A stretch of 64,000 nucleotides of DNA from Ornithinibacillus sp. 4-3 (GTDB lineage Bacteria > Bacillota > Bacilli > Bacillales > Amphibacillaceae): contig NZ_CP162599.1 in the NCBI RefSeq assembly GCF_040958695.1, positions 3,506,001 through 3,570,000 on the forward strand, given 5' to 3'. Below, in pieces: positions 27,667 to 29,259 of the stretch. A program made the position numbers and the translations under genes. The notes beneath the pieces were generated by a model. It did not search any database and was not told the origin of the DNA. It saw only the letters and a program-made list of their open reading frames with translations. The first letter of the stretch is position 1. Each line of letters starts with the position of its first letter.

Positions 27667-29259
27667 TTATTTACATGCTTGTACAATAGACTCAAGAAAT
27701 CCTTTAATTAAAGCATGTGGTCTAGTTGGACGTGATTTGAATTCTGGATGGAACTGACATGCAATAAAGTAAGGATGATCCTCTACTTCAATAATTTCAA
27801 CAAGCTCATTATCAGGACTTACTCCGGAGAATATTAAACCTTTTTCTTCTAAAATTGCACGGTATTTATTATTAAATTCATAACGATTACGATGGCGTTC
27901 ATTTACTTGAGAAACTCCTTCATAAATAGCCTTCGCTTTAGAGTGATCCATTAATGAACATGGGAATGAACCTAGACGCATTGGATCTTGTAATGTTTTA
28001 CCAGGTAATAAATCAATTACTGGATTCGTCGTATTTTCCGCAAATTCTGTAGAATGTGCATCTGCTAAGCCTGCTACATTTTTTGCAAATTCAACGATAG
28101 CTAACTGCATTCCTAATGCAATTCCAAGGAATGGAACTTTATTTTCACGTGCGTACTGTGTCGCATGAATTTTACCATCTATACCATCAGGACCAAATCC
28201 ACCTGGAACGACAATACCATCTACTTTTGCTAAATCTGCAAGTAGTTTATCCTTATCTGGGTCTTCTGAATCTAGCCACACTACTTCAATATCTGTATCG
28301 TATACAAATCCAGCGTGCTTTAATGCTTCAACTACTGAAATATACGCATCTGGTAATTCTACATACTTCCCTACAAGTCCAATCGTTACTTTCTTTGATA
28401 AATTACGTACTTTATCAACTAATGCTAACCAATCTGTTAACTCTGCTTCTTTACAGCTCATATTCAAATGGTCACAAACTAGTTGGTCAAAGTTTTGCTC
28501 CTGTAATGCAATTGGTACATGATAAAGTGTATCTGCATCACGCATTTCAATAACTGCTTCAACATTAATATCACAGAAGAGAGAGATTTTCTCTTTCATC
28601 TCTTGGCTAATTGGTAATTCTGTACGTAAAACGATCGCATCTGGTTGAATACCTAATGAGCGTAATTCTTTTACACTATGCTGAGTTGGCTTTGTCTTTA
28701 CCTCTCCAGCTGCACGAATGTATGGAACTAATGTACAGTGAACATACATTACATTCTCTCTGCCTTTTTCATTTTTAATCTGGCGAATCGCTTCTAAAAA
28801 TGGTAAAGATTCAATATCTCCTACTGTTCCACCAATTTCTGTAATTACTATATCTGCCTCTGTCGCTTCTCCAGCACGATATACTTGATCTTTAATTTCA
28901 TTCGTAATATGTGGGATAACCTGAACTGTCGCACCTAAGTATTCATCATTTCTTTCTTTACGAATAACACTAGAGTACACTTTCCCAGTTGTAATATTAC
29001 TGTATTTATTTAAATTAATATCAATGAAACGCTCATAATGTCCAAGGTCTAAGTCTGTTTCCGCTCCATCTTCTGTAACGAAAACCTCTCCATGCTGGTA
29101 TGGACTCATGGAACCTGGATCTACGTTCAGGTATGGATCAAATTTTTGGATTGTTACTTTTAAGCCGCGATTCTTTAATAATCTACCTAATGAAGCAGCT
29201 GTAATTCCTTTTCCTAATGAAGATACAACTCCACCCGTTACAAAAACATACTTGGTCAT
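27667..29259 (-). CDS. pyrG: CTP synthase, glutaminase nucleophile Cys replaced by Ala
   Basis: Makes CTP from UTP and ATP with ammonia, normally taken from glutamine. The protein has 530 residues. The N-terminal synthetase domain is intact (FVTGGVVSSLGKGITAASLG, KFDPYLNVDPG, EIGGTVGDIES). In the class I glutaminase domain the catalytic Cys of LGICLGMQ is replaced: residues 379-385 read GIALGMQ, with Ala381 encoded by GCA at 28117-28119. The partner residues His504 and Glu506 (FHPEF) are kept. The oxyanion-region motif GGFGxRG reads GGFGPDG, so its Arg is lost as well. Loss of the nucleophile should leave an ammonia-dependent enzyme; that is inference from the known mechanism. Expression is set by a CTP-sensing attenuator upstream. 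Confidence 0.95.
   Translation of the reverse strand: MTKYVFVTGGVVSSLGKGITAASLGRLLKNRGLKVTIQKFDPYLNVDPGSMSPYQHGEVFVTEDGAETDLDLGHYERFIDINLNKYSNITTGKVYSSVIRKERNDEYLGATVQVIPHITNEIKDQVYRAGEATEADIVITEIGGTVGDIESLPFLEAIRQIKNEKGRENVMYVHCTLVPYIRAAGEVKTKPTQHSVKELRSLGIQPDAIVLRTELPISQEMKEKISLFCDINVEAVIEMRDADTLYHVPIALQEQNFDQLVCDHLNMSCKEAELTDWLALVDKVRNLSKKVTIGLVGKYVELPDAYISVVEALKHAGFVYDTDIEVVWLDSEDPDKDKLLADLAKVDGIVVPGGFGPDGIDGKIHATQYARENKVPFLGIALGMQLAIVEFAKNVAGLADAHSTEFAENTTNPVIDLLPGKTLQDPMRLGSFPCSLMDHSKAKAIYEGVSQVNERHRNRYEFNNKYRAILEEKGLIFSGVSPDNELVEIIEVEDHPYFIACQFHPEFKSRPTRPHALIKGFLESIVQACK

Follow-up and report, generated by a model that had tools for sequence, protein, structure and literature searches.

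How does a cell make CTP with a CTP synthase whose glutaminase half no longer has its nucleophile? Glutamine-fed amidotransferases are part of textbook core metabolism. The question is raised by pyrG1, a gene in a 64,000-nucleotide stretch of the genome of Ornithinibacillus sp. 4-3 (the window; NZ_CP162599.1, positions 3,506,001 to 3,570,000). This genome, here G000, is one contig of 3,694,176 bases.

The glutaminase site of PyrG1

PyrG1 is a 530-residue open reading frame that matches CTP synthase models of NCBIfam and Pfam over its full length. Its whole-protein scores lie far above the family cut-offs (PRK05380, 820.7 bits with a cut-off of 308; TIGR00337, 808.1 with a cut-off of 462.75) despite the lost "glutamine-hydrolyzing" site, and CTP_synth_N scored 434.6. 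At that site the expected GICLGMQ reads GIALGMQ (codons GGA ATT GCA TTA GGA ATG CAG), which bears out the original prediction that Cys381 had become Ala. PyrG1 therefore lacks the class-I nucleophile Cys of a glutamine-hydrolysing CTP synthase, and it is chemically impossible for Ala or Gly to act as the nucleophile. The triad residues His504 and Glu506 remain and the lid motif GGFGxRG is altered to GGFGPDG, both as predicted. The GGT motif reads QDP, so both GTP-activation elements, the L11 Arg and the GGT-containing loop, are changed. The Arg of MRLG is retained.

Residue 358 lies 23 residues from the nucleophile, a spacing that equates it with Arg356 of E. coli and Arg359 of L. lactis in the L11 lid. 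The excerpted text of PMC9138612 assigns roles in GTP activation to the L11 Arg and to the Thr and Arg of the GGT-containing motif. In L. lactis variants at the L11 Arg, GTP activation of glutamine-dependent synthesis was strongly reduced and NH3-dependent activity was little changed; some GAT-domain variants retain NH3-dependent activity (PMC9138612, excerpts). PyrG1 shares its architecture and synthase domain with TIGR00337 enzymes, of which the E. coli enzyme uses exogenous NH3 (PMC9138612, excerpts), but it differs from glutamine-hydrolysing CTP synthases in the nucleophile, the L11 Arg and the GGT loop. In having a GAT domain with a replaced nucleophile it resembles mammalian CPS1, where a glutaminase-like domain is kept but inactive, the Cys is replaced (Ser294 in the human enzyme) and glutamine is unused (PMC4655335, excerpts). 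From the loss of the nucleophile, it is well supported that PyrG1 would depend on ammonia.

Table 1. Features of the window and of related loci (positions are those of the window unless a locus, L, or a contig is named)
Feature	Location	Strand	Basis or remark
pyrG1 (CTP synthase, glutaminase domain inactivated; inherited gene neighbourhood)	27667..29259	-	Family profiles, neighbours
Synthase (amidoligase) domain, residues 1-265, strongly conserved	28465..29259	-	Pfam CTP_synth_N 3-267; omega
Glutaminase (GAT) domain, residues 290-524, evolving faster	27688..28392	-	Pfam GATase 302-522; divergence ratio, omega
Codon 381, GCA, Ala replacing nucleophile Cys	28117..28119	-	Sequence, homologue comparison
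Codon 358, Asp replacing L11-lid Arg	28186..28188	-	Family comparison
Residues 424-426, QDP replacing GGT motif	27982..27990	-	GGT in 144 of 150 family PyrGs
Residue 458, Asn replacing His (ERHRNRYE)	27886..27888	-	Row comparison
His504, triad residue kept	27748..27750	-	Alignment
Glu506, triad residue kept	27742..27744	-	Alignment
pyrG1 neighbours rho, glpX, murA, fsa, fba	21083..27101	-	tblastn in relatives
glnA, intact Clostridia-like pyrG2 and glmS, candidate transferred block; IS1380 transposase gene downstream	L250:8850-14059 (G000:C1, about 1.654-1.659 Mb)		
Two pur operons of G000	L254, L255 (G000:C1, 1.748-1.766 and 3.178-3.192 Mb)		One purB-C-S-Q-L-F, one native-like
Asparagine synthetase B-like proteins, N-terminal Cys to Thr (G001) or Ser (G000)	L241:1306-3147, L242:100-1962		

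Cysteine loss and glutamine synthetase in relatives

We aligned PyrG1 with related PyrGs, as had been proposed alongside the original prediction. Among the matches listed, the Cys is replaced in 27 of 120 homologues, by Gly in 17, by Ser in 7 and by Ala in 3. In the window's family we read the PyrGs of 150 of the 159 genomes. Position 381 is Cys in 145 of these, Gly in four (G001, G010, G069 and G153) and Ala in PyrG1. The four Gly genomes each have a single detected PyrG. His504 and Glu506 are found in all 150, and the triad His and Glu in all 282 aligned PyrG rows. The lid Arg occurs in 149, PyrG1 alone carrying Asp.

Another sequence, P0002, is 99% identical to PyrG1 (P0001), differs from it at three residues and also has Ala at 381. 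A sequencing or assembly error had the single codon of the initial observation in its favour, and we found no further support for it. The chance of such an error is practically nil: the distinct P0002 shares the Ala, relatives have Gly or Ser, and correlated losses affect that domain as well as further enzymes. The four Gly relatives use GGA (three) or GGT (one). Since GGA is one substitution away from GCA, the proposal that two small indels had converted Cys into Ala is both unsupported and unnecessary, and we rejected it.

A DNA pattern for non-Cys variants, blind to Ser as TCN, Asn and Val, matched 11 family genomes. Five matches were pyrG and six were other proteins (in G033, G011 and G034 a protein reading GIGFGMQ; in G143, G172 and G173 elsewhere). 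Among 397 genomes drawn from the wider order the same pattern found no further pyrG; all 29 matches outside the window's genome read GIGFGMQ, in frames without the CTP synthase label motif. More than one pyrG match, from second copies or split pieces, was seen in G070, G074, G076, G102, G107, G126 and G165. On a synthase-domain tree of 145 rows, from which four near-duplicates were excluded, at least eight changes of Cys state are placed, with weak support.

Other positions change together with the Cys. His458 is altered in 26 of 32 Cys-less rows and 1 of 250 Cys rows (282 aligned, some of the Cys-less rows near-identical), and within the family a residue other than His is confined to G000, G001 and G010. 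Gly424 of the GGT loop is altered in 17 of 31 Cys-less rows as against 2 of 246 Cys rows. For Leu108, the counterpart of the coupling residue Leu109 of E. coli, the counts are 12/32 and 15/250. The E. coli L109A variant keeps NH3-dependent synthesis and couples glutamine hydrolysis poorly (PMC9138612, excerpts).

A PF00120 search detected glutamine synthetase (GS) in 148 of 159 family genomes and in 14 of 14 control genomes. It was undetected in 11: G001, of the same genus as G000; G010 and G069; G026 and G150-G154; and G061 and G105. These absences come from one search method; several genomes are fragmented, and the 11 have stated completeness of 80-99%. We read the PyrGs of nine of these 11 genomes, and four are Cys-less and five Cys-bearing. 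Among the other 141 PyrGs read, the one without Cys is that of G000, the carrier of a glnA block described below. Cys loss is thus associated with GS absence (Fisher P = 3e-5, uncorrected for kinship). The five GS-less PyrGs that keep the Cys count against a tie between the two losses; they include those of G105 and G061, whose sites are otherwise ordinary. Ten of the 150 family PyrGs have another residue at Leu108. Six of them come from the nine GS-less genomes read (three Cys-less, plus G026, G150 and G152) and the other four from G149, G024, G062 and G117; the change in some GS-positive genomes counts against a tie to GS loss.

Weak GS matches were found in G009 (2.5e-38) and G062 (1.4e-14, three matches), and less strong ones in G149 (1.8e-100, two matches). 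These copies are perhaps decaying or foreign.

Glutamine could still be the donor if another nucleophile, or a partner glutaminase, fed the tunnel. Ser stands at 381 in seven of the 120 homologues among the matches listed, and the invariant His and Glu fit such a scheme. We regard it as very improbable because Ala and Gly are unable to do the chemistry, because the lid Arg, GGT loop and Leu108 are eroded too in several members, and because four of the five Cys-less family genomes gave no GS match.

We also built a species tree of 25 taxa from eight proteins of the pyrG neighbourhood. It leaves the deeper branches among the GS-less genera poorly settled, and we claim no number of losses. A single clade of the seven rows was not rejected (p-AU 0.257), and a grouping of G000, G001 and G010 gave p-AU 0.125.

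Decay of other glutamine amidotransferases

A PF00117 search of the four Cys-less, GS-less genomes (G001, G010, G069 and G153) gave 21 matches, and we read every frame. Across PyrG, GuaA and CarA, a triad residue is lost at 12 of 12 sites, and at 11 of these it is the Cys. The GuaA nucleophile is Asn in G001 and Gly in G010 and G069; G153 keeps the Cys and has His changed to Tyr. The CarA nucleophile is Gly, Gly, Gly and Ser in G001, G010, G069 and G153, and in each of these genomes Asn has replaced the CarA His. Nine same-fold proteins served as an internal control (seven Peptidase_C26, one homoserine O-succinyltransferase and one DJ-1/PfpI), and all nine keep the Cys. In G026, which is GS-less with a Cys-bearing PyrG, the GuaA His is Tyr. 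Of the 120 homologues of the decayed GuaA of G000 among the matches listed, 115 keep Cys, His and Glu; the five that do not include its own cluster. PurQ, HisH and TrpG/PabA had no PF00117 match in G001, G010, G069 and G153, and all three were found in G000.

PurF shows a related pattern. In G010, G069, G153, G150 and G026 the place of the nucleophile has no Cys codon, and an ATG start is possible just before FGIWG/FGVWG. The native purF of G000 and the purF of G001 still have NEEC codons, with a stop codon just upstream. Between this stop and FGIWG, the sole ATG, GTG or TTG is a GTG that lies two codons past the Cys, rare ATA or ATT starts being possible. Judged by start codons, PurF of the GS-less G001, G010, G069, G153, G150 and G026 is translated without its nucleophile. 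Crenarchaeal PurF' paralogues also lack the N-terminal Cys and have been proposed to be possibly ammonia-dependent (PMC3261824, excerpts). However, a Cys-bearing PurF coexists with PurF', whereas in these six genomes the Cys-less PurF is the only one found by PF13522.

When PurS, PurQ and PurC of the second pur operon of G000 were used as queries, there was no in-place match in the pur stretches of those six genomes or in the native operon of G000; two weak matches (E about 1e-5; L311 and L322) fall in other genes. In the listed pur stretches purL directly follows purB or purK. AsnB-type proteins read MTG in G001, where a GTG also lies upstream, and MSG in G000; we take the expected N-terminus to be MCG, including the nucleophile Cys. 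GlmS scored above the cut-off in two of eight genomes, G000 and G012. In the six GS-less genomes there was no full-length GlmS, the matches being side matches of PurF type or short SIS type. The catalytic residues of GatA, which we assume to be Lys, Ser and Ser, are kept in all eight genomes. With these residues in place, tRNA probably continues to draw on some amide, be it glutamine or asparagine, a point against the ammonia-based reading given below.

Part of the decay of glutaminases is not tied to GS loss. G012 (L324:7310-17150), chosen as a control for the pur operon, has GS, GlmS and intact PyrG and GuaA sites, yet its pur stretch shows no purS or purQ, so it was not a clean control. Its PurF has an open propeptide and the Cys, and the HNGN motif of this PurF reads HDGA. 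In the fetched stretches, where NagB was sought, nagB adjoins the decayed guaA of G026 (L322:9622-14947).

We asked how far constraint has been relaxed. The ratio of GAT to synthase divergence, measured from 49 distant PyrGs with P0002 excluded, averaged 1.97 in 31 Cys-less rows and 1.73 in 76 Cys-bearing genome rows (71 from the family, 5 from other families; Mann-Whitney P = 7e-13, the rows being non-independent). The Cys-bearing G026, G149, G150 and G152 are already at 2.04-2.07. GS-less G061 counts against the pattern: its ratio is 1.73 and its GAT divergence is not raised. The NG86 omega of the GAT domain was 0.10-0.21 in five of six pairs from genera g1, g10 and g26, the G000-G001 pair being undefined, as against 0.016-0.075 in 14 of 15 control pairs, one being undefined. 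Two pairs of g9, the genus of G061, gave 0.048 and 0.054 and are not raised. Synthase omega did not exceed 0.053 in any pair for which it was defined; many dS values were saturated. Among six decayed GuaA copies (15 pairs), the GAT domain is 35-62% identical as against 72-90% for the other half; an intact pair (the second GuaA of G000 with that of G012) gave 60% and 79%. In the glutaminase halves of both PyrG and GuaA, constraint is relaxed and still present.

A GAT omega so far under 1 in the affected pairs could mean that the domain is kept for regulation, by filament formation or by sensing GTP or UTP, and not as part of an ammonia-fed enzyme. We consider this very improbable: the GTP-responsive elements are among those lost, and where one pyrG was detected, CTP must come from that enzyme.

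Glutamine enzymes probably regained in the window's genome

A search of the window's genome for a second pyrG, also suggested with the original prediction, found a Cys-bearing copy outside the window. The gene pyrG2, at 1655552-1657138(+), encodes a protein 56% identical to PyrG1, with GICLGMQ and the lid Arg. It is flanked by glnA on the minus strand and by glmS on the plus strand, and an IS1380 transposase gene lies farther downstream. Among the 120 PyrG2 homologues in the matches listed, two with no organism named are 99% and 95% identical. Those with a named organism are from Clostridiales, Oscillospiraceae, Intestinimonas, Papillibacter and Clostridium (70-72%), names that we take to denote Clostridia; entries with no organism named reach 74%. 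One of these homologues, P0125, is a CTP synthase homologue of 747 residues, about 200 over the normal length, on a 48 kb contig. The product of the block's glnA is 56-61% identical to four family glutamine synthetases, which are 76-92% identical among themselves. No convincing repeats flank the block, and its GC content is unremarkable. PyrG2 was apparently acquired by transfer from a Clostridia-like donor, and glnA-pyrG2-glmS is a candidate transferred glutamine block.

Other intact enzymes accompany this block. Of the two GuaA copies in G000, one is intact and the other decayed, with Gly for Cys and Gln for His; the genome's single CarA is intact. Its native-like pur operon has purL and the decayed purF with no purS or purQ match. 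In the second operon PurQ was confirmed, and the PurF there retains NEECG. In contrast to pyrG2, pyrG1 is taken as the inherited copy because its neighbours are shared with the pyrG stretches of family relatives. By tblastn in 21 such stretches, rho and murA were found in all 21, fsa in 18, glpX in 17 and fba in 16.

Being redundant with PyrG2, PyrG1 could be a decaying relic in this genome, either tolerated or in the course of being lost, with PyrG2 making CTP from glutamine. PyrG2 has both the Cys and the lid Arg and adjoins glnA and glmS, and PyrG1's combination of Asp358 and QDP is absent from the other 149 family PyrGs. We think this unlikely, since the PyrG1 frame is full length, its synthase domain is conserved, and the three differences from P0002 all fall within the GAT domain. 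In addition, the only PyrG detected in G001, G010, G069 and G153 is Cys-less, which indicates that loss of the Cys alone is compatible with function. The further prediction, of a CTP supply dependent on free ammonia, is likely to hold for those four genomes; for the window's genome, with its intact PyrG2, it is not established.

We favour, with considerable confidence, the reading that the lineage abandoned glutamine as its usual nitrogen carrier and that PyrG1 is an ammonia-fed CTP synthase with a dead glutaminase half. The synthase half would aminate UTP with free NH3. In the group of PyrG1's host, relatives of Virgibacillus, Oceanobacillus and Pseudogracilibacillus, GS would have been lost. 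Glutaminase parts that are fused or structurally needed (PyrG, GuaA, CarA, PurF, AsnB) would have decayed. Outright loss would have befallen GlmS and the separable parts, PurQ with PurS and probably HisH and TrpG/PabA. The driver may have been an ammonia-rich habitat, with GS loss raising free ammonia further. The GAT domain, still constrained, would probably be kept for folding and as the route by which external NH3 comes in. Exogenous NH3 is a usable substrate for CTP synthases, and its entry through the GAT domain has been suggested by the effects of GTP (PMC9138612, excerpts), which would give a reason to keep a dead GAT domain folded. The window's genome would later have regained glnA with intact pyrG, glmS, guaA, carA and purQLF. 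The sequences directly show the residue losses, the genes that went undetected, the second copies and the relaxed constraint; from these we infer ammonia as the donor in vivo, the habitat, the order of events and the working of PyrG1 in the window's genome.

Competition for ammonia offers a rationale by analogy. In Salmonella, a weakened NadE competes with GS for ammonia, and a glnA mutation suppresses nit (nadE) (PMC3376133, excerpts). Like the enzymes proposed here, NadE is an amidating enzyme that works on free ammonia in vivo; unlike them, its single-domain form is seen as ancestral in the excerpted text, whereas the glutaminases here were lost secondarily. By this analogy, GS loss would favour ammonia-fed enzymes and GS return would penalise them, which may be why the glnA of G000 comes with intact glutamine-dependent enzymes.

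Taken jointly, the findings make it reasonably likely that a lineage with 2-4 Mb genomes dismantled glutamine as its nitrogen currency and that one member rebuilt it. CTP, GMP, carbamoyl phosphate, phosphoribosylamine, FGAM and asparagine would be made from ambient ammonia without GS. Glucosamine-6-phosphate may derive from NagB in reverse, which could replace the undetected GlmS. GatCAB would be the main amide-dependent step left, perhaps fed by asparagine. The rebuilding member would have gained glnA and intact glutamine-dependent enzymes, partly as the single glnA-pyrG-glmS block, because a returned GS would drain the ammonia needed by enzymes with dead glutaminases.

Searches of openly licensed PubMed Central literature listed neither a CTP synthase without the Cys nor a joint loss of amidotransferases and glutamine synthetase. 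A dead but retained GAT domain (CPS1, PMC4655335) and loss of an N-terminal Cys (archaeal PurF', PMC3261824) are already known from the excerpted sources. CPS1 is one animal enzyme, whereas here bacterial PyrG, GuaA, CarA, PurF and AsnB are affected together and GS is undetected in relatives. The joint loss, with a sister that regained these functions, amounts to a natural experiment. It bears on the reasons for using glutamine and not ammonia, on how GS competes with users of free ammonia, and on whether a cell can live without free glutamine.

One observation touches on habitat. It concerns P0319, the GuaA of Pseudogracilibacillus auburnensis, in which Tyr likewise replaces the His. Of eight GuaAs compared, it is closest to that of G026 (76.5%), so genus g26 may be Pseudogracilibacillus. 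Pseudogracilibacillus was dominant at day 60 in aerobic poultry-carcass burials, and carcass breakdown gives off an ammonia-rich fluid (PMC8532636, excerpts).
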